Shown here piece after piece: positions 10,554 through 42,732 of a DNA stretch of 64,000 nucleotides; the stretch's first letter is position 1, and every line of letters begins with the position of its first letter. The DNA is from Pyrobaculum neutrophilum V24Sta. GTDB lineage: Archaea > Thermoproteota > Thermoprotei > Thermoproteales > Thermoproteaceae. The notes beneath the pieces are model-generated. The model was not told the origin of the DNA. It saw only the letters and a list, made by a program, of their open reading frames with translations, and did no database searches. A program made the translations under genes and the position numbers. The DNA lies in the NCBI RefSeq assembly GCF_000019805.1, contig NC_010525.1, positions 62,001-126,000 on the forward strand, given 5' to 3'.

Positions 10554-11545
10554 GGTGCGGAAGCAGAGAGGTTTTTGTAAAGATACAGGAGGCCACTAAC
10601 CCGGAGTGGGGCAAGCCGCCCTCTCGGCGCTCTGCGGAGGAGCACATCAAGTATTCCCTTGTCCTTCTGGACAAGCCCAGGGGGCCCAGTAGCCACGAGG
10701 TGGCGGCTTGGGTGAAGAAGATACTCGGCGTGGAGCGGGCCGGCCACGCGGGGACGCTCGACCCCAAGGTATCCGGCGTACTGCCGATCGCAGTGGCCGA
10801 GGGCACGAAGGTGCTTCTTGCGCTTTCTCGCTCAGATAAAGTCTACGTGGCTGTGGCGAAGTTCCACGGGGATGTAGACGAGGGGAAGCTCAGGGCTGTG
10901 TTGGGGGAGTTCCAGGGGATCATCTACCAGAGGCCTCCCCTCCGCTCCGCGGTGAAGAGGCAGCTGAGGACTAGACAGGTGTACTCCATCGAGCTTCTGG
11001 AGCTAGACGGGAGATACGCCGTGATTAAGATGCATGTCGAGGCCGGCACCTACGCGAGAAAGCTTATCCACGACATTGGGGAGGTGCTGGGCGTGGGGGC
11101 AAACATGAGGGAGCTCAGGAGGGTGGCCGTCTCTTGCTACACGGAGGAGGAGACCGTCACGCTACAGGACGTGGCGGACGCCTACTATATATGGAGGAAG
11201 TACGGCGACGACACCTACCTCAGGAGGGTTCTGCTACCTATTGAAGAAATCGCGAGGCACCTCCCCAAGATCTGGGTTAGAGACAGCGCGGTGGATGCCC
11301 TCTGCAACGGTGCCCCCCTTGCGGCCCCGGGTGTGGCCAAGTTCGAAGCGCCGTTTTCAAGAGGCGAGCTCGTGGCGTACTTCACCCTCAAAGGCGAGCT
11401 CATAGGGGTAGGCAGAGCTTTGGTAGACAGCGAGGAGGTGAAGAAGATGGAGAAGGGGCTGGTGGCTAGGACAGACAGAGTGGTGATGAAGAGGGGGACG
11501 TACCCGCCGCTGTGGAAGCGTCGTGGCGAGGGGGCTAAAGCTTAA
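10550..11545 (+). CDS. cbf5: Pseudouridine synthase Cbf5 (H/ACA RNP)
   Basis: The 331-residue protein carries the TruB/Cbf5 catalytic motif [17 protein letters not shown] near residue 64 (catalytic Asp in LDP), the [12 protein letters not shown] loop, and a C-terminal PUA domain ([19 protein letters not shown]). Cbf5 is the catalytic subunit of H/ACA ribonucleoproteins, working with Nop10, Gar1 and L7Ae on guide RNAs to make pseudouridine in rRNA; it can also make U55 in tRNA. The GTG start overlaps the L14e stop. The 3' end contains the TATA box of the DUF211 gene. Confidence 0.96.
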
Positions 11546-11568
11546 AAGGGGGAGGGTTTAGAGGTAAC

Positions 11569-11862
11569 GTGGGGGAACGTCCTCCAATACGCCGTATAGT
11601 GATAGACGCCGCTATACCTACTAAGGGGATAACGATAGTGGATGTGGCTAAGGAGCTCTACCGGGTCGAGGGGGTTAAGGCGGTGCGCGTGACCGTAGAC
11701 GACGTAGACGTCGACGTGCTCGGCCTCGCCATAGTCGTCGAGGGGGTCAACGTCGACTACGGAGAGCTGGAGAAGGCCTTGGAGAGGGTGGGGGGCGTGG
11801 TGCATTCGATAGACGAGGTGGTGGTTGGGGAGTATATACCGGAGGCGGGGGCGACGACGTGA
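11569..11862 (+). CDS. DUF211 family protein
   Basis: The 97-residue protein matches the archaeal DUF211 family in length and in motifs: IRRIVIDAAIPTKGITIVDVAKEL at the start, VRVTVDDVDVDVLGLAIVVEG in the middle, and GVVHSIDEVVVG near the end. It has a ferredoxin-like beta-alpha-beta fold with an acidic patch, and family members have been reported to bind metal ions; its role is not known. A TATA box (gcttaaaag) overlaps the cbf5 stop, 25 bases before the GTG. Its stop overlaps the GTG of the VIT1-like membrane protein gene, which hints at a shared metal-related job. Confidence 0.85.
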   Translation: MGERPPIRRIVIDAAIPTKGITIVDVAKELYRVEGVKAVRVTVDDVDVDVLGLAIVVEGVNVDYGELEKALERVGGVVHSIDEVVVGEYIPEAGATT

Positions 11863-12356
11863 GATACCTCGTCCTCGGCGCGATAGACGGCATCATCAGC
11901 GCGGGGACCCTCTCCGCCTCCCTAATACTAAGGGGGGGCGCGGTGAGCCTCGACTTCGCCCTATCGTTGGCGGTGGTGGTAGCCTCCATAAACTCGCTTA
12001 CGGTTTTCGTGGCGGAGTTCTCACACCAGCTTCGGGAGGTGAGGGAGGTGTCTTACAAGGTCTCCCTGAGGGAGGAGGCGCCTAGGTGGACGTTGCTCCA
12101 CAGACGCGCACTCTTCTCCACGTTTAGATCTGCGCTTTCGAACTTCGCCGCCTCGCTCCTTGGGGCGGTCTCCGTGCTGGTGCCGGCATCCTTCGCGCCG
12201 CACGCCACCTTTGTGGCGATCGCCGCGGCCGTGTTAGCCGCGAGCGCGGCGGTGGCGGGGGGCTCGCCGAGGGAGTTTCTGGAGTTCGCCGCCATGGCGG
12301 GGGCTGCCATTGGGGTAGGCCTCGCCGTGGGCTTGGCGTTCCCCGTGATCTCTTAG
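11859..12356 (+). CDS. VIT1/CCC1-like membrane protein
   Basis: The 165-residue protein starts RYLVLGAIDGIISAGTL, closely resembling the LGANDGIVSTASL signature of VIT1/CCC1 iron and manganese transporters. Further hydrophobic helices follow (VVVASINSLTVFVAEF, then several Ala/Val-rich segments), about five in total. It lacks a long cytoplasmic metal-binding domain. Metal transport out of the cytoplasm is plausible but inferred. It overlaps the DUF211 gene by four bases (gtga). Confidence 0.7.
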   Translation: MRYLVLGAIDGIISAGTLSASLILRGGAVSLDFALSLAVVVASINSLTVFVAEFSHQLREVREVSYKVSLREEAPRWTLLHRRALFSTFRSALSNFAASLLGAVSVLVPASFAPHATFVAIAAAVLAASAAVAGGSPREFLEFAAMAGAAIGVGLAVGLAFPVIS

Positions 12357-12382
12357 ATTTATATACACCGCAGGTATAGCAC

Positions 12383-12844
12383 GTGGCTACGTTACCTGTC
12401 GAATATCTGAGGACCACCAGGCTGTTTAGGGAGAGGGTGGGGGATGTGGAGATAATATCCTTCGAGGTGCCCGTCCACAAGTACTTCTCAAGGAACGAAA
12501 TCCCCTACCTAGCCACAGCCCTCGAGGCAGATCCGCGGAAGTTGGAGAACATGCTCTCCGACATGAGGTACGGGAGGGTGGCGGTGGAGAAGCTCTGGGC
12601 GTATAGGCTAGACGGCGATTTGATACGGGAGAGCAAGAAGGTCCTCCTGCCCGACCTTGCGGCAAATAGGGAGGTAGACGGCGAGGTGGACGAGCTTGAG
12701 GACGCCAAGATCTTAAAAATACACGTGGCCGGCGTGAGGGAGCTCGTGAGGATATTCGTCAGAAGGCAACAGGGCTATAGGGAGGTGGTCGTATACAGAA
12801 AGCCGCCTCATCCGGCGCTGATTAGGTACGTGGCGTTTCTCTAA
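12383..12844 (+). CDS. Conserved hypothetical protein
   Basis: No family is recognised for this 153-residue soluble protein. It has an N-terminal beta-rich stretch (VGDVEIISFEVPVHKYFSR), a charged helical middle (DPRKLENMLSDMRYGRVAVE), and a C-terminal part rich in Arg and Val (VRELVRIFVRRQQGY). A TATA box (gatttatatac, about 12356-12366) lies in front of the GTG, so it has its own promoter. It sits between the VIT1-like gene and a Gfo/Idh oxidoreductase on the same strand without overlap. Confidence 0.65.
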   Translation: MATLPVEYLRTTRLFRERVGDVEIISFEVPVHKYFSRNEIPYLATALEADPRKLENMLSDMRYGRVAVEKLWAYRLDGDLIRESKKVLLPDLAANREVDGEVDELEDAKILKIHVAGVRELVRIFVRRQQGYREVVVYRKPPHPALIRYVAFL

Positions 12845-12873
12845 AGATTTAAGGGCGTCTATACGGCCACCCG

Positions 12874-13812
12874 ATGAAGGTCGCGGTGGTCGGCATAGGG
12901 GGTTGGGGGAAGAACCACCTCCGCGTTGTGACGCAGCTGAAGGGGGAGGACCTAGTGGAGGTGGTATACGCCGTAGATATAGACGAGGCGCGGCTTAGGT
13001 GGGCCGAGAGGGTCTACGGGGCGCGGCCTGTGAAGGGCGTCGAGAAGGCGCAGGATCTAGACGTAGACGCGGCGATCATCGCAACGCCTACGTCTCTCCA
13101 CGCCGCACACGCGGCCGTCTTCCTATCCAGGGGAATCGCCACGCTTGTGGAGAAGCCCTTCGCCGCCTCGCTAAGGGAGGCGCACGAGTTGCTTGACGCC
13201 GCCGGCGGCACCCTCGTCACAACGGGCTACCTGCTGAGGTTCCACCAGGGGGTGAGACACGTGAGGAACAACCTGGGCAGGCTCGGCAGGTTCCTCACGG
13301 CGTATGGCAAGAGGACCTCCAGGTGGCCTGTGAGGCCGGGAGACGTGGGCGTGATAAAGGACTTGGCTATACACGACGTGGACCTCCTCACATATATCAC
13401 GGGGAGGCGGGCCGCCTCGGTCTACGCCCTGGGGGGCTCCACGAGGGGTCAGTACGAGGACCACGCCCAGATCTTCGCGAGGTACGACGGCGCCTCGGCG
13501 ATCTTTGAGGCCAACTGGCTAACGCCGTATAGGTTTAGGAAGCTGGAGCTCACGGGAGACCAGGGCATCTACGTGGTGGACTTCGCCACAGACGAGGTGT
13601 ATTTCTACGGCGAGGAGGGGGTCTACCGCCCCCGTATAGAGATGGCGGAGCCTCTGCTGGTGCAAGACAGGGAGTTTATAAAGGCGGCGGCGGGGAGGGG
13701 GGGCGAGGTTGTGGACAGAGAGGACATCCTCTACACCATGAGGTTCTGCGAGGCGGCGGTGGAGTCGATAAAGACGGGCCGCGTGGTGTACCTAGACGAG
13801 CTCCACACGTAA
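12874..13812 (+). CDS. Gfo/Idh/MocA family oxidoreductase
   Basis: The N-terminal Rossmann fold is plain (MKVAVVGIGGWGKNHLRVV), followed by the family's IIATPTSLHAAHA and VEKPFAAS motifs, where the Lys-Pro contacts NAD(P). The C-terminal half has the KDLAIHDVDLLTYI segment with the conserved His/Asp of the substrate site. These enzymes oxidise or reduce sugars and related compounds with NAD(P). At 312 residues it has the usual length. Substrate is unknown; sugar-nucleotide or inositol-type substrates are common in archaeal members. A TATA-like stretch (aagatttaagg) lies before the ATG. Confidence 0.9.
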   Translation: MKVAVVGIGGWGKNHLRVVTQLKGEDLVEVVYAVDIDEARLRWAERVYGARPVKGVEKAQDLDVDAAIIATPTSLHAAHAAVFLSRGIATLVEKPFAASLREAHELLDAAGGTLVTTGYLLRFHQGVRHVRNNLGRLGRFLTAYGKRTSRWPVRPGDVGVIKDLAIHDVDLLTYITGRRAASVYALGGSTRGQYEDHAQIFARYDGASAIFEANWLTPYRFRKLELTGDQGIYVVDFATDEVYFYGEEGVYRPRIEMAEPLLVQDREFIKAAAGRGGEVVDREDILYTMRFCEAAVESIKTGRVVYLDELHT

Positions 13813-13862
13813 ACTTCGCCATCCTAAACACTGAGGCTTTTTACAACGGGGGGCACACCTAT

Positions 13863-14402
13863 ATGAAGCCGGGAGAAGAGCTCACGTTGGGAGAGCTCGA
13901 GAAGCTGGATATGGGGCACGACTTCAAGCTGGCCTTGTCTAGAGCGGCCGAGGGGGGCAACGTATACCTCGTGGGCCCCCCCGGCAGTGGAAAAACCGCG
14001 ATGCTTAGGAAGCTCGGGCTCTACCTCTCGAGGCTGGGCCGGGGGGCTCTATACCTAAAGCTCGAGTGGGTGAAATACGGCTGGAGCCTCTCCGACTACG
14101 TCAAACACTACGGCGATAAAAGCCGCCAGCTCCTGGGAGGCGAGATCGGAGACGTCGTTCTCCTCGACGACGGGGAGCTCCTCTGGGGCTACGGCTCCGC
14201 CTACAGAAACATAGTGAGAGACGTCAGGGGGAGGCAGATAGTTGGGGCTTTTAGGGAATTCGACGTAGACGCCGCCACGTTGCTCTTCGGGGACGGCTTG
14301 ACCATCTACATACAGCGCCACCACGCGCCGCGGGAGGCGGCCTCAAAGGTGCCGCTTGGACTTGCCTTCTTGAACAAAACCGTGGAGATCACGGTAATAT
14401 AG
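13863..14402 (+). CDS. Small P-loop ATPase
   Basis: The 179-residue protein has Walker A GPPGSGKTAM near residue 39 and Walker B VVLLDDGELLWG near residue 97, then a sensor-like REFDVDAATLLFGDG. It resembles a stripped-down AAA ATPase lacking the C-terminal lid; archaeal genomes carry many such proteins of unknown use. It is preceded by a 50-base spacer and overlaps the convergent CPBP protease gene by 14 bases. Another single-domain ATPase occurs at 19452 and a larger one at 43821. Confidence 0.75.
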   Translation: MKPGEELTLGELEKLDMGHDFKLALSRAAEGGNVYLVGPPGSGKTAMLRKLGLYLSRLGRGALYLKLEWVKYGWSLSDYVKHYGDKSRQLLGGEIGDVVLLDDGELLWGYGSAYRNIVRDVRGRQIVGAFREFDVDAATLLFGDGLTIYIQRHHAPREAASKVPLGLAFLNKTVEITVI

Positions 14403-14970
14403 AAAGCAGAGCGAGGAGGTTGTTCAGCCCGTGGAGAACTATAGACGATAACGCCCCACCCTTTTTGAAGGAGTAGGTTAGGATGAGGCCCGACGCGAAA
14501 TACAGCGGCGTCAGCGCGGGGAGGCCGTGGACCAGGGCAAAGGCCAGGGAGTTCCCGACGTAGCCCACTAGGGCGCCTGCCCTCCTCTCCAGCTCGGTGT
14601 AGAGGATGACTCTAAAGAGCGTCTCCTCGACGACGGGAGCTAGGACGACGGCGGTGATGAAGAAGTACAGCAGCCAGCTCGGGCAGCCGGCAATGGCCTC
14701 CAGTAGCTCCCTGGTAAAGGCCTCGTACTCCCTCAGGATCGGGCTAAGCAAGGCCTCAAGCCCCCACAGAGCCGCGAACATGCCGAGCGAGACGAGGAAG
14801 TACCTCGGCCTCAGGGTTAGGTACCGCCTCGAGTAGTAGACCACCGGCGTCAGCGCTAGATAGGCCGCGGCCATGGGGATCGCCAAGCCGCAGCCGGGCG
14901 CCAGCAACGCGGCGGCGCCCATGGCTATAAACATAGCGGGGAGCGACAGCGCTAAGACGACGAGACGCAT
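14389..14970 (-). CDS. CPBP family intramembrane metalloprotease
   Basis: The 193-residue protein is mostly transmembrane helices and carries the three CPBP/Abi motifs: EETLFR (EExxxR), FALVHG (FxxxH) and HGLNN. Glutamates and histidines of these motifs form the intramembrane active site of CAAX-type proteases. The ATG at 14970 is preferred over an earlier in-frame ATG because a TATA box (gtttataagtgg on the minus strand) lies about 22-25 bases before it. The promoter lies across the start of the divergent gene at 14999. Its substrate is unknown. Confidence 0.85.
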   Translation of the reverse strand: MRLVVLALSLPAMFIAMGAAALLAPGCGLAIPMAAAYLALTPVVYYSRRYLTLRPRYFLVSLGMFAALWGLEALLSPILREYEAFTRELLEAIAGCPSWLLYFFITAVVLAPVVEETLFRVILYTELERRAGALVGYVGNSLAFALVHGLPALTPLYFASGLILTYSFKKGGALSSIVLHGLNNLLALLSILP

Positions 14971-32114: not shown

Positions 32115-32468
32115 ATGGAGTCGAAATATAGGGAGGAGCTCTCCCTATTTCTTTCCAGAACAGGGGGAGATGTGCTGGGCGCCGTCATGGCTAGACGCGA
32201 CGGCCTCCCAGTCGCCTCGGCCGCCCCCGGCATGGACCCCAAGGCCATCTCGGCGCTTGCGGCCCTGGCGCTGGGCACCCTGAGGAAAGTCGGCGACGAG
32301 CTCAAAATCGGCGGGGTGAGGCAGGTGGTGGCCTACTACGACAGCCGGGTGATAGTGATGTGGCCGGCTAGGGAGCTCTACATAATCGCCGTGGCCAACG
32401 CAGACGCCAACATAGGCCTAATCTTCCTAGAGCTGGAACGCCTCGCGAAGAGGCTGGCGGAGCTATGA
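32115..32468 (+). CDS. Roadblock/LC7-domain protein
   Basis: The 117-residue protein shows the Roadblock/LC7 pattern: a helix (SKYREELSLFLSRTGGD), strand VLGAVMARRDGLPVASAAPG, helix PKAISALAALALGTLRKVGDEL, then strands VRQVVAYYDSRVIVMW and LYIIAVANADANIGLIFLELERL. Roadblock proteins act as partners of small GTPases such as MglA in bacteria and archaea. No GTPase gene is in view. It overlaps the following V4R-like gene by four bases (atga). Confidence 0.82.
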   Translation: MESKYREELSLFLSRTGGDVLGAVMARRDGLPVASAAPGMDPKAISALAALALGTLRKVGDELKIGGVRQVVAYYDSRVIVMWPARELYIIAVANADANIGLIFLELERLAKRLAEL

Positions 32469-32926
32469 TGGACCTCCTCGGCGCCCTGGGCAAGCTCCTC
32501 AGAGGCGACCTCAAGCTCAAGCCGGAGGAGGGCGTCCTGGAATACAGAGGGCAGAGGCTTGTGGCGCTCCCAGCCTCGGCCATAGACGCCGCCGTCAAGG
32601 AGATGGAGAAGTACTTCGGAGAAGCCGCCGTCATCGTCATGGAGAGGATGGGGGCGGCCGTAGGCGCCGCCGTTAGAAACGCCCTAGGCTGGAAAACCGG
32701 AGAGGAAGCCCTCAGAGAGCTCCCACAGATGGCGCCCCTGGCGGGGCTGGGAAAAATCAGGGTCCAAGGCGACAGACTCGAGATGGAAAACATGCCAGAA
32801 GACGTAGACCCCGCGGTCCTGAGGTACATCGCGGGCTTCCTAGAGGGCCTCTGCATACACGTGGAAGAGATAGGGGGAGGAGGCCACAGAGCAGAGGCAA
32901 AAGTAGCCCCACGGCCGTGCCCCTGA
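32465..32926 (+). CDS. V4R-like domain protein
   Basis: The 153-residue protein has ASAIDAAVKEMEKYFGEAAVIVMERMGAA, the start of a V4R (4-vinyl reductase-type) small-molecule-sensing domain, and ends with YIAGFLEGLCIHVEEIGGG, the strand with a conserved Gly-Phe and Cys. The first 40 residues look like a linker or dimerising part. Such domains sense ligands and regulate partners, here presumably the co-translated Roadblock protein. The link to the pilin gene that follows is by position only. Confidence 0.7.
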   Translation: MMDLLGALGKLLRGDLKLKPEEGVLEYRGQRLVALPASAIDAAVKEMEKYFGEAAVIVMERMGAAVGAAVRNALGWKTGEEALRELPQMAPLAGLGKIRVQGDRLEMENMPEDVDPAVLRYIAGFLEGLCIHVEEIGGGGHRAEAKVAPRPCP

Positions 32927-32982: not shown

Positions 32983-33414
32983 ATGCCAACGAAACTAAGA
33001 GGAATGACATCCCTGGAGATAGCGATAATAGTAGCGATAGTGCTGATAATAGCGGTAGCAGTAGGCTGGTACCTATACACCACATTCGTAGCCTCCACCA
33101 CAGGACAGCCAAGACTAAACGTAGTGTCAGCAGAGATATATGCAAGCAAGGGCACACTTAATCTTACACTTGTAAACCCAGGTCCCATCGACGTCCAGAT
33201 ATCGGCGGTGGAAGTAGGCGGTACAACAGGATCCAGCCCGCAGTGTACAGGCACTACACCTGATAGCTCTGGTAACATCGTGATAAAGGTAGGCCAGCAG
33301 GTTAAATGCGGATTTAAGATAACGATCACGGCGACGCCTGGCACCATGTTGCCTGGCCGCGTGATTCTGTCTGGCGGCCAGAGCTTCCCGTTCAACGCGA
33401 TCGTAAAGCCGTAA
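32983..33414 (+). CDS. Type IV pilin with class III signal peptide
   Basis: The protein begins MPTKLRG-MTSLEIAIIVAIVLIIA: a short basic leader ending in Gly, then Glu at mature position 5 and a 22-residue hydrophobic helix. This is the classical archaeal prepilin form cut by PibD after KLRG. The mature part is a Thr/Ser/Gly-rich beta domain (LNVVSAEIYASKG, TLNLTLVNPGPIDVQISAVEVGG) with two cysteines that could form a disulfide. A TATA box (aaatatttaaag) precedes the ATG by about 30 bases. It is likely the main subunit of a surface filament. Confidence 0.85.
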   Translation: MPTKLRGMTSLEIAIIVAIVLIIAVAVGWYLYTTFVASTTGQPRLNVVSAEIYASKGTLNLTLVNPGPIDVQISAVEVGGTTGSSPQCTGTTPDSSGNIVIKVGQQVKCGFKITITATPGTMLPGRVILSGGQSFPFNAIVKP

Positions 33415-33430: not shown

Positions 33431-33832
33431 ATGGATTCTCTTGGTTTTTTGGTTGTTTTAGTGGTTGTCCTTGTTATCGCTTTTGTTCTTGGGTTTTGGC
33501 TTCTCTCTAACTTTCTGGTGGCTAAGGAGGAGTTTTCGCGGGTGTATCCCATCGCGGCTTACGTAGATGCGGGGGGTGGCTTCCTTCTGTGTGTCTACAA
33601 CGCGGGTCCTCACGACTTCTATGGGAGGTGGCTGGTTTCTACGAAGTCTGGGAAGTCTGTGGAGGTCTCTCTCGCCGTGCCGGTTGGGAGGACTGTTGCC
33701 GTGAGGGGGTCTCTCGGCGAGTCGTTTACGCCGGGGACGTCGCCTGCTCTTATCCTCGTGACGGGCGGTGGGAGGGGGTACGTGGTTAATCCCATCGTCG
33801 TGCCGGACATAAGCTCGGTGAGTTGTGGATAG
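33431..33832 (+). CDS. Pilin-like membrane-anchored protein without leader
   Basis: The 133-residue protein begins MDSLGFLVVLVVVLVIAFVLGF, one hydrophobic helix with no basic leader, and continues with a beta-rich outside domain (YPIAAYVDAGGGFLLCVYNAGPHDFYG). It lies 16 bases after the pilin gene and, upstream in frame, stop codons and no start codons exclude a leader. Compared with pilins it has Gly in place of Glu5. The ending DISSVSCG plus an inner Cys may form a disulfide. A minor subunit or anchor role is inferred. Confidence 0.65.
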   Translation: MDSLGFLVVLVVVLVIAFVLGFWLLSNFLVAKEEFSRVYPIAAYVDAGGGFLLCVYNAGPHDFYGRWLVSTKSGKSVEVSLAVPVGRTVAVRGSLGESFTPGTSPALILVTGGGRGYVVNPIVVPDISSVSCG

Positions 33833-33876: not shown

Positions 33877-36417
33877 ATGAGGTGGCTTGTTCCTCTTCTG
33901 CTGGCGGCTCTTGCCTTCGCCTACGTGGTCCCCTCGGAGGGTCTCGACGTCTACTGGTGGGCCGCGCCCGACAAGGTGGCCGGCGTCGGCATAGACGGGA
34001 GAACTCTGTGGCAGATCGACGCGGTTTCCCCCCTGGCGGCGACGGACCAGGTGGGGAGGTGTGTGGCGGTGGTCAACAGGCCGTATCTCTACGTGGTGAG
34101 GCAACAGCCTATGGAGCTTAGGGTTTCTATTCCGGCTACTGTCCAGCTTTCTCCTGACCTCGTCAGCACTTTGAGCCAGTACGGCATCTCCTTCCCAAGC
34201 ACTGTCAACGTGGTGCTTAACTTCACCATCCCCCTGCCGCCGCTTGTTTTGGCGAGCGTCTACAAGACGTCGGTTGCCTCGCTTCACACGCCCTATGGCT
34301 ACCCCCTGTGGGCCGTCTCGCTTGGGCCTAGGGTGAACGCCACCGCCGTGGCCACAAACTGCCGGGATGTGGCCGTGGGGACGATTTCGGGGGAGGTCTA
34401 CGTGCTTAGGGATGGGAAGGTGTACGCCGTGTATACATACGGCGAGCCGGTGACCGCGCTTGCCTACGGCCGGGACGTCTTGTACGTCGGCACCGCCGGG
34501 GGCAAGATCTACGCCGGGGGGAGCCTCGTCGGGTCGTGCTCCGGTTCTGTGTACTACCTCGCAATGAGGCCGGACGGGAGCCCCGTGGCGCTCTGCTTCT
34601 CCAAGGGGGCGGTCCCCACTGTCGAGTACTACCCCTACGGCGTTAGGCTGACCCCCTCCTCCTACGTGGACTACGGGATAGATACGCCGAAGGTGCCGGC
34701 GGCGCTGAGCCAAGACGGCTCTCTCTTCGTCGCGGCTACCCAGGGCTACGTGGTGGCGTTTAGCGGGGGGCGCGAGCTGTGGAGGGCGAAGGCCCCCTCT
34801 CTGCCCACTGCGGTGGCGGCCTCCAACAACGGGTCTATCGTCGTTGTGGGCACCCTAGGCGGCGACGTCTTGGTGTACTGGAACGGGAGGGAGGCGGCGA
34901 GGTTCCTCGGCTCGGCCCCCGTCACCTCCGTCGCCGTATCCGCCGACGGGAGGGCCCTGGCGGTGGAGCGGTGGAACACGGTCTCCGGCTTTAGGATCGC
35001 CTTCGCCGCGGTGCGCGTCTCGGCGCCTCCCGAGTGCCTCCCCGCCGAGGTGCAGGTGGCGGTGGGCGGCTCGGTGTATAGGTACCTGGTGTCCGGCTCC
35101 GGCGTGGTGCTCCTTCCTGTGGGCGACGTGACGGTGGCGCCCCAGTACAAGTACCTAGGCGACTTCAGGTGCCGCCCCTTCGGCAACGTGACGCTGGCGG
35201 TGAGGGGGGATCTGGAGAGCCCCATCGAGATAGGCTACGTCAAGGAGTATAGGGTGCACCTCTCCCCTCCGAACATAACGAGGGGCCCCGCCTGGGCCGC
35301 GGGGCCAGCCACCTTCTTCGCAGAGCCCAGCGTAAACGTGCCGGTCTATAACTCGCCGGTTTCCTCCGGCCGCCTCGTCCTAGTTGGCTGGGAGGTAGAT
35401 GGCAGGAGGATAGATCTGCCGACCCCCACCCTCTCCGTCAACGTGGAGGGGCCGACGACGGTCAAGGCCATATACAGGGTTGAGCTGCCCCAGGCCGTGC
35501 CTATAGACGAGCAGAGGCGCTACTGGCTGAAGACCGTGCTGGTCTTCGACGCCTTTGGGAACCCCGTGGCCTCCGGCGTAGCCCCCGAGGTGTCCATCTA
35601 CCCGGTGGTGGTGAGGGGGGTCTACGTCGAGCAGTACAGGGTGCGCACCTACTACCCCGCCACGGTCAACGGCTCCGACACGCTGTGGGCCGAGGCCGGG
35701 ACTAAGGCGGTGTTTTACGCCCCCGACGTGGAGTTTAGAAACGGGACGAGGCTGGCCTTCGTCAGGTGGAGGGAGGCCGAGTCGAGGGAGCGGACCCTTG
35801 CCGTCACTGTCGAGGGCCCAACGACGCTTACGCCCATATACGTCACTCAGTACAGGGTGTGGGTGAAGCCGCCGGCTCAGGTGGTGGAGCCACCGAACGC
35901 CACCTGGGCAGACCGCGGCTCTGTGATAAGGGTGGCGGCGCCTCCCGTGTTGAACCAGAGCGGCGACGTCAGAACTGTGGTTGGGCAGTGGCTGGTTAAC
36001 GGCCTTCCCAACGCCACGGGCGCCGTAGCGTCGTTTAGGGTGACGGCGCCGCTCAACATAACCTACGTAGCGAAGAGGCAGTACCTGGTAACCTTCGTCT
36101 CGGCCTACGGCACGCCGCCCCCGCCCATGTGGGTCGACGAGGGGTCCACGGCGTCTGCGGTGCCTACGCCGATGGACGTCTGGTCGCCCCCGCCGCTGCA
36201 CTGGAAGTTCGTCGGCTGGAGAGACAAGGCGACGGGCACCGTCTACAGCTACCCCCAGATGCCCTACGTCTACGGCCCCGCCACCTTCGAGGCCGTCTGG
36301 GCCCTAGACCCACTGCCTCTAGCCGCAATAGGCGGCGGGGCAGCCGCGGCGGCGTTCGCCGTGTGGTTCCTGAGGAGGCGGCGCCTGGCGAGGCTGATGG
36401 CCGAGGTGGCGGAGTAG
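33877..36417 (+). CDS. Large secreted beta-propeller/beta-repeat protein with C-terminal anchor
   Basis: The ATG at 33877 follows a TATA box (catatatttaagg) and opens a signal peptide (MRWLVPLLLAALAFAYVVPS). Roughly residues 30-370 look like a WD40- or PQQ-type propeller with repeats such as DGRTLWQID, GDVLVYWNGREAARF and TSVAVSADGRALAVE. After that come about four beta domains starting KEYRVHL, EQYRVRT, TQYRVWV and RQYLVTF, each with a trailing GW/RW segment. The end is a transmembrane helix and basic tail (AAAAFAVWFLRRRRLARL). Several N-x-S/T sites suggest glycosylation. It is probably a surface or S-layer-like adhesin of 846 residues. Confidence 0.72.
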   Translation: MRWLVPLLLAALAFAYVVPSEGLDVYWWAAPDKVAGVGIDGRTLWQIDAVSPLAATDQVGRCVAVVNRPYLYVVRQQPMELRVSIPATVQLSPDLVSTLSQYGISFPSTVNVVLNFTIPLPPLVLASVYKTSVASLHTPYGYPLWAVSLGPRVNATAVATNCRDVAVGTISGEVYVLRDGKVYAVYTYGEPVTALAYGRDVLYVGTAGGKIYAGGSLVGSCSGSVYYLAMRPDGSPVALCFSKGAVPTVEYYPYGVRLTPSSYVDYGIDTPKVPAALSQDGSLFVAATQGYVVAFSGGRELWRAKAPSLPTAVAASNNGSIVVVGTLGGDVLVYWNGREAARFLGSAPVTSVAVSADGRALAVERWNTVSGFRIAFAAVRVSAPPECLPAEVQVAVGGSVYRYLVSGSGVVLLPVGDVTVAPQYKYLGDFRCRPFGNVTLAVRGDLESPIEIGYVKEYRVHLSPPNITRGPAWAAGPATFFAEPSVNVPVYNSPVSSGRLVLVGWEVDGRRIDLPTPTLSVNVEGPTTVKAIYRVELPQAVPIDEQRRYWLKTVLVFDAFGNPVASGVAPEVSIYPVVVRGVYVEQYRVRTYYPATVNGSDTLWAEAGTKAVFYAPDVEFRNGTRLAFVRWREAESRERTLAVTVEGPTTLTPIYVTQYRVWVKPPAQVVEPPNATWADRGSVIRVAAPPVLNQSGDVRTVVGQWLVNGLPNATGAVASFRVTAPLNITYVAKRQYLVTFVSAYGTPPPPMWVDEGSTASAVPTPMDVWSPPPLHWKFVGWRDKATGTVYSYPQMPYVYGPATFEAVWALDPLPLAAIGGGAAAAAFAVWFLRRRRLARLMAEVAE

Positions 36418-36467
36418 AGACCGGCGGGGCCACCACAAAATATTTTTACTTCGACGTCTTTTCTAGC

Positions 36468-37790
36468 GTGAGAGGGCTTGAGTCGGTGGAGTTGGTAGTC
36501 ACCGTTGCCCTACTCCTTGCATTCGTAGGGGGTACCTACTACTTCTTCACGTGGGTCTCCGACTTCTCAAAACAGCAGCAGTTGCAGGCGGATCTGTCGG
36601 CGCAGGCGCAGAACGTCTTGGACAGGATTATATACTACAGGCCTTACAACCCCTTGAAGGAGCTCGGCGTGGGCCTCGACGGTAGGTACGTCGACGATAG
36701 ATACATAGCGCTGTATGCCCTAGCGGCGGGGGGCCGACCGCCCGGCCAGACCTGCACAATACAGAGCCAGGCGCTTGCCTCCGCCGTGGGGACAAGCCAG
36801 GCGACGCTGGTGGGGAGGGGGTGGCTCTACGTGGATCCCCAGCAGCTGTCTCTGGACTACGTCGACATCGTTAAAGACCTCTTCGGCTCAGTTGCGCCAG
36901 ATGGAGTGACGCCGCTATACAACAAGTACGACCTGTGGCTCACCATAACGCCGGTCGTCAACGCCACATGCTCCATAAACAACGACGGGACAGCCTCTCT
37001 CCAGCTCTTCACCACGTACGGTAGGAGACCGGTAGACGGCAAAGTCGTCTACACGATCCTATACGCGGCCCCCAGCGGGAGTTCAGGCGTGCTGTGTTCA
37101 AAGACGGGGGTCGGCTATACGCAGGGAGGCACGCTGGTGGTGAAGTGGCAGGACCAGCTCACCTGCGACCCCCAGGGCACGGTCGTGCCTGACACAAATA
37201 CGGGAACCCTCGTCGTTATCTTCGAGAAGATAGATAGGCCGGCTACCCTCTGCTACGCGGTGGCCGGTAAACAGCGCCCTCTGGCGTATGGCTTTGTCTT
37301 GCCGACAAGCTCCGGGCCTGTGCTGTACATCGCCCACGACGCCACAGTCTCGTGTGGAAGCGGCAATCTGCCGGCGCTTGGCGTGAGGTATGTGGATCTG
37401 TTCTGGGGCGGCTCTAGATACAGGGTGGCGTCTGACGTGACGCTTGACCCCGGCGTTGGGAGAGGCCGGGTCAAGGTGGACAGATGTTCGGCGTGTACGG
37501 GCTCTTCCCAGTGCGCGGCGTGTTACATAGACGGCATACCGCCAGCCGCCAAGCTGGCTGTGATATATGTGGAGAGGAACTCGCAGGGCCAGAGCGATCA
37601 GACGCCCCTTGTTGACCTCATAGTGGTGCCGGTGGCTCCGTATCCCCCCCTGATGAGGGTAGACGTGAGGACGTGGCTGAGGTGGGGGTTCGTGAACACT
37701 CCGCAGGTGTACTCGGCCGTGGCCACGAGGGTGGTGGACAGCCCAACGTCTACGTACAACTTCACCCTCGTGCTGTATAGGTGGCCATGA
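36468..37790 (+). CDS. Pilin-like N-terminus with large extracellular domain
   Basis: The protein starts VRGLESVELVVTVALLLAFVG, with Glu at position 5 and a hydrophobic helix right after the start codon, as in a mature pilin. The frame is open upstream but has no start codon near, and a TATA box (aaaatattttta) lies about 25 bases before the GTG, so no leader peptide is encoded. The 400-residue outer part has paired cysteines (CSACTGSSQCAACYID) and beta-rich segments. It is the first gene of a tight five-gene run to 42732. Confidence 0.7.
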   Translation: MRGLESVELVVTVALLLAFVGGTYYFFTWVSDFSKQQQLQADLSAQAQNVLDRIIYYRPYNPLKELGVGLDGRYVDDRYIALYALAAGGRPPGQTCTIQSQALASAVGTSQATLVGRGWLYVDPQQLSLDYVDIVKDLFGSVAPDGVTPLYNKYDLWLTITPVVNATCSINNDGTASLQLFTTYGRRPVDGKVVYTILYAAPSGSSGVLCSKTGVGYTQGGTLVVKWQDQLTCDPQGTVVPDTNTGTLVVIFEKIDRPATLCYAVAGKQRPLAYGFVLPTSSGPVLYIAHDATVSCGSGNLPALGVRYVDLFWGGSRYRVASDVTLDPGVGRGRVKVDRCSACTGSSQCAACYIDGIPPAAKLAVIYVERNSQGQSDQTPLVDLIVVPVAPYPPLMRVDVRTWLRWGFVNTPQVYSAVATRVVDSPTSTYNFTLVLYRWP

Positions 37791-38233
37791 GGTGGGTTCT
37801 TGAGCTTTTCGTGGTGGTGGTTCTCCTGGGCGCGGTGACCTACTTCTTCGCCGCCGCGTTGCCTCAGGGCCCCTCTGCGGTTCAGAGCAACCGGGAGTCC
37901 ATGGAGCAGCTGTTTACAAACCTCGCGAGGCTCATGCTGGACCCGCAGTTCTTGAGCTCGCTGGAGGGGGCCATATGCAATGATGCCAACGCGCTGAGGT
38001 ACGTCTCAACGGCGCTGGATCTATCGCTGGGGCCTCAGTACGTATACAACATGACCGTGTTGCCCGGCAAGCTACTGCCGCCGTGTCTAGCCTGCGCCTC
38101 GCCTCAGTCCAGGCTTCTCTCTCTGGCCCGCCCCTACGGCTACAGCGGTCCCTCGGTGTACAACGCCACGTTCTACGTGCTTCTCCCAAGCGGGGCAGAC
38201 GTGAGGATCGTGTTGGCCGTGGGGAGGCCATGA
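37787..38233 (+). CDS. Pilin-like small surface protein
   Basis: The 148-residue protein begins MRWVLELFVVVVLLGAVTYFF, a leaderless hydrophobic helix with Glu at position 6, followed by an outside domain with CLACAS and N-x-T sites (YNMTV, YNATF). The ATG overlaps the stop of the previous gene (atga), and its own stop overlaps the next ATG, showing translational coupling. Size and form suit a minor pilin. A GTG six bases upstream is also possible. Confidence 0.68.
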   Translation: MRWVLELFVVVVLLGAVTYFFAAALPQGPSAVQSNRESMEQLFTNLARLMLDPQFLSSLEGAICNDANALRYVSTALDLSLGPQYVYNMTVLPGKLLPPCLACASPQSRLLSLARPYGYSGPSVYNATFYVLLPSGADVRIVLAVGRP

Positions 38234-41200
38234 GAGGCCAGGCGCTGGTTCTGGTTGGTCTTATTCTCGTCGCGGCTTTGGCCGTGGCCATGATGGCGTT
38301 TTACGCGTTGCAGAGCTCCGCCTCCCTGGCGCCTTCCAAGCCGTCCTACGGCTATATATCGAGGTCTTGGCCCGACCTAGTGAAGCTGGCCGGCGGCTAT
38401 CTGACCTATGTGGCGTCCCAGAGCGTCTTCGCCTTGGCTAGGGGCTCCCTAGACGTGGGCTTATACGGGAGGCCGTACGACGGTAGGTGGCTTCAGTACA
38501 ACGAAACGGCTCGGCGGGCTCGGCTGGGCTTGTTGACCATGTCCGCGGCCCTCGCCTCTTTGCAGGTGAACGCCACGGGCGGTCTCTGGTACTACATACG
38601 GGGCTTCAACGGGTCGCTGGGGCCCTACCCGCTCGCCGCCACCTACAGCAACTGGAACCTCGATGTGGTGAGAACGGGCGTTGCGATACCTTGTGGCTCG
38701 GACACGCTGTACATCCGGCTGGTTCCGCTGAACGCCAAGGCGGCGCGGTTCGTTGTCCAGTCGCAGGTGGACGTAGGCGTGCCCTACGTCTTGACGTATC
38801 TGGGACACACCAGCGACATAGTGACTGTGGGCGCCGGCTATAACGAGATCCTCTCGGACATGTTGCGCATGGGGAACCCAAACGGCAAGCTGGCCCTATA
38901 CGCCTTCGACTCCTCCGTCCTAGGGCCGAACCTCTGTTACAAGACCGACGACCAGATAGCCCAGGTCGTCCGAAGCGGCATAAAGCCGTTGCCGTGGTAC
39001 GCCGAGGTGTTCACGTGCCCCTTCTGCATGTTGCACTTCCAGGTTCCGCCCGGTTTTCTGCAGAAGGGGAGGACCTCGGAGGTTCTGATCACATATACGA
39101 CGAGCGGCTCCATATCGGCGCCGCAGTTTAAGGTGGTTATTTCCAGGCGGGCCGGCTACAGCGAAATCCCGATATATGTAAACGCGTACACCACAAGCGA
39201 CCCGCGCGCCGTCTTTCCGGCCTACTTCGGCGCACGAGACATCGCTACGTGGCAAAGTGCCGTTGTGGCCACAGACGGGGACTGCTATCCGGCGCCTCAA
39301 GGCGGCGTCGTGGACTACGGCGTGGCTGTGACGACGAACTATCTGCCCCCCGGCACAACGATTAGCCGGAGCGTAAGGATATACGCCACCTACGCGCCTA
39401 ACACCCAGAGGTACGGCTTCAACGTGTTTACATCATACAGCTGGCCCTACTCCGACGTCGGCTACAAGGTCGAGGCGCTGGTTCTGCCCGAGGACGTCAG
39501 CTATATCAGGCCGGCTAGGCTGGACATCTACGCGTCTGACCCCAGCTCCACACACCCGATATGTGCCTCGATGTATGCCGTTCAAGTGGTCAACCCAGTG
39601 CTTGTGTGGTCGTGGTGGAACATCGGCGGTGGGTATGTGTGGAACGGGAGAACTTGGGACGTGGGGTATGTGGTCTACAGCGGACGCCAGTGGTACCTCA
39701 TGTCCTTTGCCCTATCTCCCTCCGGCATCGCACAGTGGGCTGTGTACCACTACAACTCGACGGGTAGGCCTATGCGGTTGCTGGGGGTCACCACGAGATC
39801 TGGCGTCACGTGGCTACAGAACTTCTACATAGTGCTGGGGAGCGCCATAGTGGATAACCCGGGGAGCACGTCGTCCTACTGGACCGAGGCGGCGTACTAC
39901 GCCTACGTTAGAGTCCGCCCTTGGGTGTATCCGGAGCCCACGGTCTCGCTCTCGGGGTTGGACACGCCGCCTCTCGTGCAGCCGCAGCGCAACGACATAG
40001 TTGCCCTAAACAGGAGCGAGGTTAGGCTTAGGCTTGACTCGACCCTAGACATGGCGGGGGCGTTCGTGCGCAGGATGAACGCCACCTTGTGGGTCAACGC
40101 CTCGGCGGCTGTTCAGAAAAGCGGCGGCGTCACCTTGACCCACGAGCGGACTTTGTGGTACCTCGTAAACGTGAGCCACAGCGAGCCCAGAGCTGCGCTC
40201 TCGTCGCAGTTCTACCTGTACTACGTGTTGGGAAACGCCGTGAGGAACTACACAATCCAAAACGTCGCTCTGTACGACTACGGCGATAGGTGGGCTAGGT
40301 TCAACGTGACTTTTACGGTGCCCCGCCGCGCCCCCTACGCCGTCTTGATCTCCGTGGCCGGGTCGGTGGTGGCGAAGTTGGCTGTTAGCAACGCGGCGCC
40401 CCGTGTCTACTACCTCAACATCCCGAACAACGACGGCACATACACATACTACGTGATGAACTACGGCAACCTCACGGCCGTCTTCTACCTCCCCTGGGGC
40501 ACCGTGACCTCCTTTGACGACAGCTGGAACCCACAGGCGCTGGGCTACTCGGGCTACTTTGGGGCGCTGTACGACGTGACAAACGGCAGAGACAGGTGGC
40601 AGGTCCTAGCGATACCGCCAGGGGGACTCGTGAAATTCAAGACGTCTAGCAGTGTCGACCTCAAGGCCGCATCCCCAAGCTGGCAACAGCCATACGTCCA
40701 AGACTTGTATCCACAGTTGCTTCGTTGGTGTGAGCTGGAGAAGATATATAAGATATATAGGTTTTTGGTCCCAACCAACATAACAACCAGCTACTACATA
40801 TTCACAATCGACGGATATCTGCCGCGGAGCCTCAGCGGCATCTACATATTTGGTCCATTCACGCCCGGCTGGGTCTCTGTACCCTACTACATAGAGAGGG
40901 ATCCTCGGGGCAACAAACTGCCGAGGATTTGGGTTAGGGTAGACGCGCCTCCTGGGAAGCTTGACTACAGCGGCATGTTGGCCGTGCTTTGTAGCCAGGG
41001 ACCAGGCGAGAGTAGCAAAGATGTAGTGTTTGGAACCGGCTACTGGGGGACCGGCACGTCCTACGCCGATATAAGCCAGCTGGCCAACCTTCTGACTTTC
41101 CCCGATGGCTATACGGTAGATATTAAGCCGCTTGTGCAGTCGAGCATAGTGGGTAGCTGGGGCTTAAGCAACTCGACGTATCTTCCGAGCGTGTGGCCTT

Positions 41201-41532
41201 GTAGCGCAGATCAGACGCATGTGGCTATTTACTACGTCGGGGGGTCGCCGCCGTATTGGTGGCATTTCGACGGGTTCTGTTTCGACAGGCATATCTGGGA
41301 GAAGCAGGGCTACACGCCCTACCTTGCGAGCATTTCCATTTCTAGGCAGTTCGTGCTGTATAGGATGTGGGATATGTCGTTTAGCTACGACGGCATGTGG
41401 CGCCGGTCGTACCCCAACAAGCCTGTTAATTCAAACAGTCCCTACGTGGCGTACAGCTATGTGGTTAGCGATTTTGGGTTTGAGTGGCGTATTCGGCCTT
41501 TTGCGTGGCCCGAGCCCTATGTGAGGGAGTAG
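38230..41532 (+). CDS. Giant (1100-residue) surface protein with TadE/G-like N-terminus
   Basis: The protein begins MRGQALVLVGLILVAALAVAM, recalling the RGQA start of TadE/TadG-type pilus proteins, and is then a single long extracellular chain. It is very rich in Tyr, Trp, Ser and Thr with many N-x-S/T sites (for example NATGG, NETAR, NGSLG) and few cysteines, typical of heat-stable glycosylated surface proteins. No C-terminal anchor is seen, so the N-terminal helix must hold it. The earlier in-frame bases overlap the previous gene, so the coupled ATG at 38230 is chosen. It may be a tip adhesin or sheath protein. Confidence 0.7.
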   Translation: MRGQALVLVGLILVAALAVAMMAFYALQSSASLAPSKPSYGYISRSWPDLVKLAGGYLTYVASQSVFALARGSLDVGLYGRPYDGRWLQYNETARRARLGLLTMSAALASLQVNATGGLWYYIRGFNGSLGPYPLAATYSNWNLDVVRTGVAIPCGSDTLYIRLVPLNAKAARFVVQSQVDVGVPYVLTYLGHTSDIVTVGAGYNEILSDMLRMGNPNGKLALYAFDSSVLGPNLCYKTDDQIAQVVRSGIKPLPWYAEVFTCPFCMLHFQVPPGFLQKGRTSEVLITYTTSGSISAPQFKVVISRRAGYSEIPIYVNAYTTSDPRAVFPAYFGARDIATWQSAVVATDGDCYPAPQGGVVDYGVAVTTNYLPPGTTISRSVRIYATYAPNTQRYGFNVFTSYSWPYSDVGYKVEALVLPEDVSYIRPARLDIYASDPSSTHPICASMYAVQVVNPVLVWSWWNIGGGYVWNGRTWDVGYVVYSGRQWYLMSFALSPSGIAQWAVYHYNSTGRPMRLLGVTTRSGVTWLQNFYIVLGSAIVDNPGSTSSYWTEAAYYAYVRVRPWVYPEPTVSLSGLDTPPLVQPQRNDIVALNRSEVRLRLDSTLDMAGAFVRRMNATLWVNASAAVQKSGGVTLTHERTLWYLVNVSHSEPRAALSSQFYLYYVLGNAVRNYTIQNVALYDYGDRWARFNVTFTVPRRAPYAVLISVAGSVVAKLAVSNAAPRVYYLNIPNNDGTYTYYVMNYGNLTAVFYLPWGTVTSFDDSWNPQALGYSGYFGALYDVTNGRDRWQVLAIPPGGLVKFKTSSSVDLKAASPSWQQPYVQDLYPQLLRWCELEKIYKIYRFLVPTNITTSYYIFTIDGYLPRSLSGIYIFGPFTPGWVSVPYYIERDPRGNKLPRIWVRVDAPPGKLDYSGMLAVLCSQGPGESSKDVVFGTGYWGTGTSYADISQLANLLTFPDGYTVDIKPLVQSSIVGSWGLSNSTYLPSVWPCSADQTHVAIYYVGGSPPYWWHFDGFCFDRHIWEKQGYTPYLASISISRQFVLYRMWDMSFSYDGMWRRSYPNKPVNSNSPYVAYSYVVSDFGFEWRIRPFAWPEPYVRE

Positions 41533-41533
41533 T

Positions 41534-42202
41534 ATGCAGTCGCTGGAGCTTCTGGTTCTGGTTTCCTTCTCGCTTCTTATCGTGTTTGCGGCTGTGCCCT
41601 ACATTTGGCAGCTTGCGTCGGCTACAATGGCGCAGTGGGAGGCGCGTCAGTTCGTCACGTTTATGTCGACTTTAGCCGACTCGATGGAGTCTGATTTCGG
41701 CATGGCGGGCGTCGTCAGGAGCTACTACATGCCTAGTTTGGTGTTTGGGGCTTTTTCGGTGAGGAGCTACCCGATGTATCTCGTGTGTCAATCCACGGGG
41801 GCCGGCGTCACCTTCAACTCCCTATATATCTGGTACAACTCCAGCTATATACTGGGCGGCGCGAAGCCGGTTAGGGGGGAGAGGAGCGTGGCGCCGGCGC
41901 CTCTCGGCCAACCCCTGGTCGCCGTCAACGCCACGGGCATGGGCTACGTGTTGTTTACGGGGCCCGTCTACGTGCCGGGCCAGTCCACGGTGCTGTACGT
42001 GGTGAACGCCACCGTGTCTCCCCTCAGCGGCTACGCCATAACGTACAGGGTGGTCGGCGTTTCAGACGGCTACAGCAACGACAGGCTGAGGATCGACTGC
42101 CCCGGCGGCGTGTTTAAGGTGGGTCTCGTGGGCGGCCCGTCGTATCTGTACAACCTCGGCACGACTGTGGTTGTCGTATCTACCCAGGTGGCCGTGTCAT
42201 GA
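41534..42202 (+). CDS. Pilin-like surface protein starting MQSLE
   Basis: The protein begins MQSLELLVLVSFSLLIVFAAV, with Glu5 and a hydrophobic helix at once after Met. In frame upstream there are only three sense codons before a stop, and none is a start, so a leader peptide is impossible in this frame. The outside domain of about 190 residues has N-x-T/S sites (YNSSY, VNATG) and two Cys. It begins one base after the stop of the giant protein and overlaps the next gene by four bases. Confidence 0.7.
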   Translation: MQSLELLVLVSFSLLIVFAAVPYIWQLASATMAQWEARQFVTFMSTLADSMESDFGMAGVVRSYYMPSLVFGAFSVRSYPMYLVCQSTGAGVTFNSLYIWYNSSYILGGAKPVRGERSVAPAPLGQPLVAVNATGMGYVLFTGPVYVPGQSTVLYVVNATVSPLSGYAITYRVVGVSDGYSNDRLRIDCPGGVFKVGLVGGPSYLYNLGTTVVVVSTQVAVS

Positions 42203-42732
42203 GGTCTCTCGAGGCCGTGGTGTTGTTTGGATTTGTCATGGCCGCTTCGGTATTTCTCGCTTTTTACGTCGATATGTTGGCGCAGGCCGCGCTGGATAGG
42301 GAGGTGAGGACGTTGGCCGCCTCGACCGAGGGGTTGCTGGTTGGGCAGTTTAGAGATGTCTTGACAGCGGCGTCGTTTTACTACATTAGAAACTTCACAT
42401 ATATGCTGTACGTCCCCACGCAGTTCCCCACGCTGGATGCGTACAACTATACGTCGTTGGTCTACGTCGGGAGAGACGGACTCCTATATATCAACACCAC
42501 GTTTACCGGATACAGAGGAAACGGCGTAAGCAACGCCTTTGTCTCTGCGGCCGTCGGCAACGTCACGAGCGCCGCCTTGACGGGAGGCGTACGCATATAC
42601 CTCCAAGGCTCCCTCGGCACTGCGCCGCCTCAGTGCTCTACGCCGTATGGCGTCAACTTAACCATGGTGGGGTGCTCGGCGCTTCTCGCGGGTGGGAGGC
42701 AGTACTACACCCTCTGGGTCATAAAGAGGTGA
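42199..42732 (+). CDS. Pilin-like surface protein starting MRSLE
   Basis: The 177-residue protein begins MRSLEAVVLFGFVMAASVFLAF, again Glu5 plus helix directly from the initiator Met. Upstream in-frame codons contain no start codon for many residues. The outer domain has several glycosylation-type sites (RNFTYM, YNYTS, NTTFTG, GNVTS). Its ATG overlaps the previous stop. It closes the operon and its end overlaps the convergent gene at 42719 by 14 bases. Confidence 0.7.
   Translation: MRSLEAVVLFGFVMAASVFLAFYVDMLAQAALDREVRTLAASTEGLLVGQFRDVLTAASFYYIRNFTYMLYVPTQFPTLDAYNYTSLVYVGRDGLLYINTTFTGYRGNGVSNAFVSAAVGNVTSAALTGGVRIYLQGSLGTAPPQCSTPYGVNLTMVGCSALLAGGRQYYTLWVIKR

Follow-up and report, generated by a model that had tools for sequence, protein, structure and literature searches.

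Can a pilin begin, at its own start codon, with the residue that a prepilin peptidase would otherwise expose? Subunits of type IV filaments are described as "always synthesized as precursors" (PMC5389465), and the class III leader that marks them is hydrophilic, 6 to 26 amino acids long, ends in Gly, and is cut off by the prepilin peptidase (PMC4471445). The question is raised in Pyrobaculum neutrophilum V24Sta by an operon in a window of 64,000 nucleotides (the whole stretch of DNA analyzed, C1:62001-126000 of a single-contig genome of 1,769,823 bp), where an initial annotation had pointed to pilin-like proteins whose first residues resemble those of a cleaved pilin; all of the N termini that it cited are present in the window sequence. 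Our comparison set comprised 19 Thermoproteaceae genomes from 3 genera, 11 of them Pyrobaculum, and the relatives met included Pyrobaculum sp. WP30, P. oguniense, and Thermoproteus. Orthologue registers were aligned with MAFFT, N-terminal helices were compared by hhalign, and AlphaFold models were compared with the PDB by Foldseek.

The operon and its pilus system

The features concerned are as follows, with proteins named by the first coordinate of their genes and a slash marking the end of a leader throughout.

32983..33414, + strand: major pilin (PilA family), with the 7-residue leader MPTKLRG and the mature start MTSLEIAIIV...
33431..33832, + strand: leaderless PilA paralogue, MDSLGFLVVL..., starting at mature +1
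33883..36417, + strand: 844-aa beta-propeller/repeat surface protein with weak Pfam propeller matches and one C-terminal transmembrane helix (hydropathy, 811-829)
36437..36448, + strand: probable TATA element of the five-gene operon, AAATATTTTTAC, ~25 nt before the GTG of 36468
36468..37790, + strand: minor pilin, 440 aa, with an ultrashort class III leader (VRG) followed by LESVELVV, in which Glu is residue 5 of the cleaved protein
37787..38233, + strand: small N-anchored subunit, 148 aa, with an invariant MRWxxEL start and Glu6 (from the alignment and the type II loci)
38230..41532, + strand: 1,100-aa subunit with the 3-residue leader MRG, then QALVLV (from orthologue starts)
41534..42202, + strand: leaderless minor pilin, MQSLELLVLV..., 222 aa
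42199..42732, + strand: leaderless minor pilin, MRSLEAVVLF..., 177 aa

The last five genes overlap by a few bases (ATGA) or abut (TAG-T-ATG), in agreement with the single overlapping operon that had been proposed, and this five-gene operon is conserved across the Thermoproteaceae. A similar A/T-rich box is found at an equal distance in relatives, and the position of the TATA element suggests that the operon transcript is probably leaderless. None of the five proteins matched a Pfam family. The protein at 33883 is a probable S-layer-like partner. Just 5' of the major pilin gene, window positions 32115-32926 encode a Roadblock/LC7-domain protein and a XylR_N-like protein.

The remaining machinery of a type IV pilus is encoded elsewhere in the same chromosome.

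C1:19322-20806: T2SSE-family secretion ATPase (locus L094), apart from the operon
C1:17789-19318: 8-TM TadC-like protein, preceding the ATPase gene
C1:600878-601438: divergent A24-like prepilin peptidase with REID and GSGYADS motifs, found with a lineage profile (L054, L100)

In Thermoproteus (L034, also L036 and L037) the operon is followed immediately by the gene of an orthologous ATPase, 75% identical, and in L034 the 8-TM TadC-like gene adjoins that of the ATPase. Because both genes adjoin the operon in Thermoproteus, we assign the operon to a type IV pilus system. Searches of the genome with PF01478 and PF06847 gave no prepilin peptidase match. Loss of PibD was considered as a cause of leaderlessness and was rejected once the lineage profile had recovered an intact, divergent PibD. 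The prepilin peptidase of the Thermoproteaceae falls below the cut-offs of both Pfam models and carries GSGYADS in place of GxGD.

The known members of bacterial minor pilin sets, such as FimU-PilVWXE with PilY1 and the pseudopilins GspH-K, are cleaved prepilins. The arrangement here resembles the FimU-PilVWXE and PilY1 operons in combining several minor pilins with one very large partner, an analogy of organization and not of sequence that points to a likely tip or priming role. The large partner would be 38230, a candidate tip protein or adhesin. Its relatives have longer leaders in some cases, and in the type II operons (L023, L024, L025, and L026) its counterpart has only ~405 to 436 aa, with the MRG/Q start and the gene order unchanged. 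Leaders of 3 residues, as in 36468 and 38230, are cut by the PibD of Sulfolobus (PMC4187195).

The portion of Makarova et al. (2016, PMC4858521) drawn on here attributes to the clade 4G system of Pyrobaculum and Thermoproteus diverged forms of both ATPase and TadC, a pair of large proteins of which one carries a C-terminal membrane helix and the other a signal peptide, and several predicted minor pilins that are small and contain cysteine. The operon and its machinery fit this clade 4G pilus system by gene content rather than by arCOG, with the ATPase and TadC-like platform linked to the pilin genes in Thermoproteus L034. In all likelihood the operon supplies the minor pilins and the tip of the pilus described there. 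We found no mention of leaderless members or of 3-residue leaders in the same portion of that paper.

Start positions of the pilin-like proteins

The mature N terminus of PilA is experimentally anchored because the solved P. arsenaticum pilin chain (6w8u) begins MTSLEIAIIV and the cleavage site of Par_PilA is Gly7/Met8 (PMC7347861). The major pilin 32983 is homologous to this protein (phmmer E value of 1.9e-19) with query residue 8 falling on chain residue 1, and the MTSLE start after a KLRG leader that had been read from the sequence is thereby borne out. The mature MTSLE has the same register as the leaderless proteins; Par_PilA, however, has a 7-residue leader, whereas the paralogues considered here have none.

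The cleanest leaderless case is 33431, which was absent from the earlier list. Eight codons, with zero start codons among them, separate it from the in-frame stop upstream. It aligns with the mature major pilin over its full length (BLASTP E value of 2e-6), residue 1 on mature residue 1, and with its own relatives at E values down to 7e-13, so that on full-length homology it is a predicted pilin. A hydrophobic helix is present; position 5 is Gly, with Glu5 in the orthologues of two genomes (G006 and G009). A PDB sequence search with 33431 returned spurious matches only.

Within the operon, 41534 cannot have a leader, as initially noted, since only 3 codons, none of them a start, lie between the in-frame stop and its ATG. 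For 42199 the claim of a leaderless start with Glu5 also stands: the frame runs 27 codons back to a stop, with ATG, GTG, and TTG all absent. Met1 through Glu5 of both proteins match the register of the mature major pilin. The N-terminal helix of 41534, and that part only, aligns with the PilA profile (hhalign E value of 3.2e-6), residue 1 on residue 1; 42199 matches the same profile weakly (8e-4) and in register, and the two proteins match each other (1.7e-6). AlphaFold predicts for 41534 (mean pLDDT of 88.8) and 42199 (88.4) a single N-terminal helix, spanning residues 2-53 (52 residues) and 2-58 (57 residues), respectively, followed by a beta domain, which in these models is the layout of a pilin. 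Foldseek searches of the PDB with both models found no significant solved pilin, the top matches being unrelated.

Two further proteins had been placed in the same class on account of an early Glu. We rejected 36468 as a case of Glu5 at the start: leaders of its orthologues end at the Gly of its VRG, and it therefore has a different register, with a real 3-residue leader and the mature start LESVE. The leader is VRG and no longer, because the stretch that separates the upstream gene from the GTG has no start codon and a TATA-like box lies ~25 nt upstream. The Gly of VRG also closes the leaders of its relatives, as in MSVKG/MESID (5 residues), ...VAVRKLRG/VAVGE (13), and MRG/LESLD (3). As for 37787, its start is MRW(V, I, or L)xE with Glu6 in every relative examined; no pilin-type leader occurs in any of these, and hhalign gave no support for a relationship to 36468. 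Removal of Met, which would restore Glu5 (M/RWVLE), is not expected before Arg. The initial proposal of pre-trimmed pilins that skip the peptidase is accordingly upheld at the level of sequence for 41534 and 42199, for which it is well supported, and best of all for 33431; it falls for 36468 and is unsupported for 37787.

The initial annotation had counted homologues with a leader in the same frame as evidence against itself. Such homologues were found, but their leaders always end just before the position of the leaderless start; the outcome favors the proposal, and we therefore conclude that this lineage has lost the leader. A homologue of 41534 is present in 11 of 11 genomes of the genus and 17 of 19 of the family; all 11 from Pyrobaculum start M(Q or T)SLE at the same position, five Thermoproteus orthologues read (M)RG/LEALE, and that of the third genus reads VRG/LESLE. 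Leaders are longer, e.g., MRITLKPVHTYWRRG/QSDVLS, in more distant relatives from a different family of the order. A homologue of 41534 also lies on a contig labeled Candidatus Calditenuaceae (L093), possibly a mis-binned Pyrobaculum contig. Two Pyrobaculum groups have 42199 without a leader (MRSLE or MNALQ), with MRG/SISTS or VRG/AVSLA in other Pyrobaculum and MRG/ISAIE in Thermoproteus. The Pyrobaculum start codons of 41534 and 42199 sit exactly on +1 of the Thermoproteus relatives with 3-residue leaders. Most Pyrobaculum orthologues of 36468 bear a leader (VRG/, MRG/, MSVKG/, or ..VAVRKLRG/), and those without one start MQSIE (Thermoproteus) or MEAVE (a single Pyrobaculum, G002).

Independently, MAFFT aligns the leaderless Met with the residue that follows MRG in all three families (41534, 42199, and 36468). 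The leader was lost in opposite lineages, from 36468 in Thermoproteus and from 41534 in Pyrobaculum, both times at +1. Off-register starts do occur, by 2 in one orthologue of 36468 (G007, MA/WEVVE) and by 1 in one of 42199 (G005, M/SASLT), and two orthologues of 41534 (G003 and G009) have an alternative GTG at -2. The rule of starting on +1 is strong, yet not absolute, and its recurrence across genomes is more than chance. The same holds for the PilA family, in which 14 of the 42 members surveyed (19 genomes, all 3 genera) are leaderless with the start codon on +1, for example MSSLE, MDSLG, MLSLG, MNSLA, MSSID, and GTG-VEAIE. Some genes of this family have a 3-residue leader forced by a nearby stop, e.g., ^EDMKG/LTSIE.

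Competing readings and their consequences

The reading that we favor, and hold as a whole with moderate confidence, is that the five genes of 36468-42732 would supply a Thermoproteales type IV pilus, powered by the ATPase and TadC-like platform, with its minor pilins, one very large subunit among them. Three N-terminal formats would stand side by side: a normal short leader in the major pilin 32983, 3-residue leaders cut by PibD in 36468 and 38230, and translation straight from the mature +1 residue in 41534, 42199, and 33431. For the last three we infer N-in insertion into the membrane as signal anchors that stay uncleaved; their ready-made mature N terminus would let them be extracted into the pilus, or into its base or tip, without the peptidase. 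That they belong to a filament or sheath together with the 1,100-residue protein, as initially suggested, is a reasonable guess. That the genes have stayed in pilus operons, and that leaders were repeatedly lost at one and the same residue, speaks for the +1 N terminus as the feature that matters. A wider claim is more tentative, to our minds hardly less plausible than its opposite: that Thermoproteaceae filaments are built partly from "born-mature" pilins that never meet the prepilin peptidase, arising by repeated register-exact loss, with processing dispensable given the right N terminus. We regard the leaderless proteins as subunits derived from pilins that probably function as pilins do, and stop short of counting them as confirmed members of the class, because the leader in its definition is lacking in 33431, 41534, and 42199 (as in 37787); the hydrophobic N-terminal helix, homology to a proven pilin, and a prepilin peptidase in the genome are all present.

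Several points count against the favored reading. Foldseek matched neither model significantly to a solved pilin. Met at +1 also occurs in leader-bearing major pilins, being ancestral in Pyrobaculum PilA, and a truncated duplicate would therefore give the register without selection. The leaderless forms have no basic leader, which is what ordinarily fixes the N-in orientation. Methionine aminopeptidase should remove Met from relatives with a small second residue (MTSLE and MSSLE) and so shift the register by one. The Met at +1 and the missing basic leader also speak for the foremost alternative, in which the leaderless proteins are former pilins that have given up polymerization and remain as plain membrane anchors, serving as assembly factors, membrane sensors, or S-layer tethers, their register inherited from the ancestral Met rather than selected. 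The change of Glu5 to Gly, Gln, or Ala in several leaderless members fits this account, as do C-terminal domains that match no solved pilin by Foldseek. We nevertheless consider it rather unlikely, since the register also holds in families where +1 of the leader-bearing relatives is Leu, Ile, Ser, or Ala, leaders were lost at +1 from different families in Thermoproteus and Pyrobaculum, and the genes still share operons with leader-bearing pilins, joined in Thermoproteus by the ATPase.

Cryptic leaders, supplied by a non-canonical upstream start or a frameshift, would make these proteins ordinary prepilins. Leaderless orthologues of Par_PilA have been put down to such mis-annotation (PMC7347861), and some upstream frames, that of 42199 included, are open for tens of codons. 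This explanation seems very improbable to us: stops lie 0 to 4 codons upstream in many members (41534; MLALE in G007; MNSLA in G014; MSSID in G017 and G018; VEAIE in G011), none of which has Lys- or Arg-Gly before +1, and in-frame stops rule out mis-annotation for the paralogues discussed here. Still harder to credit, and already largely contradicted, is a chance likeness of membrane-anchored surface proteins unrelated to pilins, for although the five operon proteins lack a Pfam family and a fold match, their orthologues bear class III leaders (long ..RRG/Q leaders among them, from genomes of a different family in the order), the PilA profile matches 41534 in register, and ATPase and TadC-like genes are adjacent.

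The pilus system itself has already been described; what is new here is the repeated, register-exact loss of the leader, and no report of leaderless pilins turned up in the collection of papers searched. Under the favored reading, natural subunits beginning at the cleavage position would pull apart two roles that knockouts usually confound, the cleavage event and the right N terminus, and leaders of 0, 3, 5, or 13 residues on the same genes in related species amount to a ready-made natural experiment. Leaderless pilins would escape any genome search, such as FlaFind, in which a class III leader is required.

Exchange of the operon between close relatives

Compared with one genome of the set (G004), the DNA of the window is ~94% identical up to position 36484 and cannot be aligned through the operon; identity resumes, at 90%, with the operon's final base, 42732. 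The unalignable interior spans window positions 36485-42731 against positions 10564-14917 of the type II locus L024, with flanking DNA ~94% and 90% identical and breakpoints at the operon ends. Gene order in G004 is unchanged, the proteins are diverged, and the large subunit has at most 436 aa. The whole five-gene operon has been replaced as one cassette between closely related sister species. The version in the window is closer to that of Pyrobaculum sp. WP30, with 69% DNA identity.
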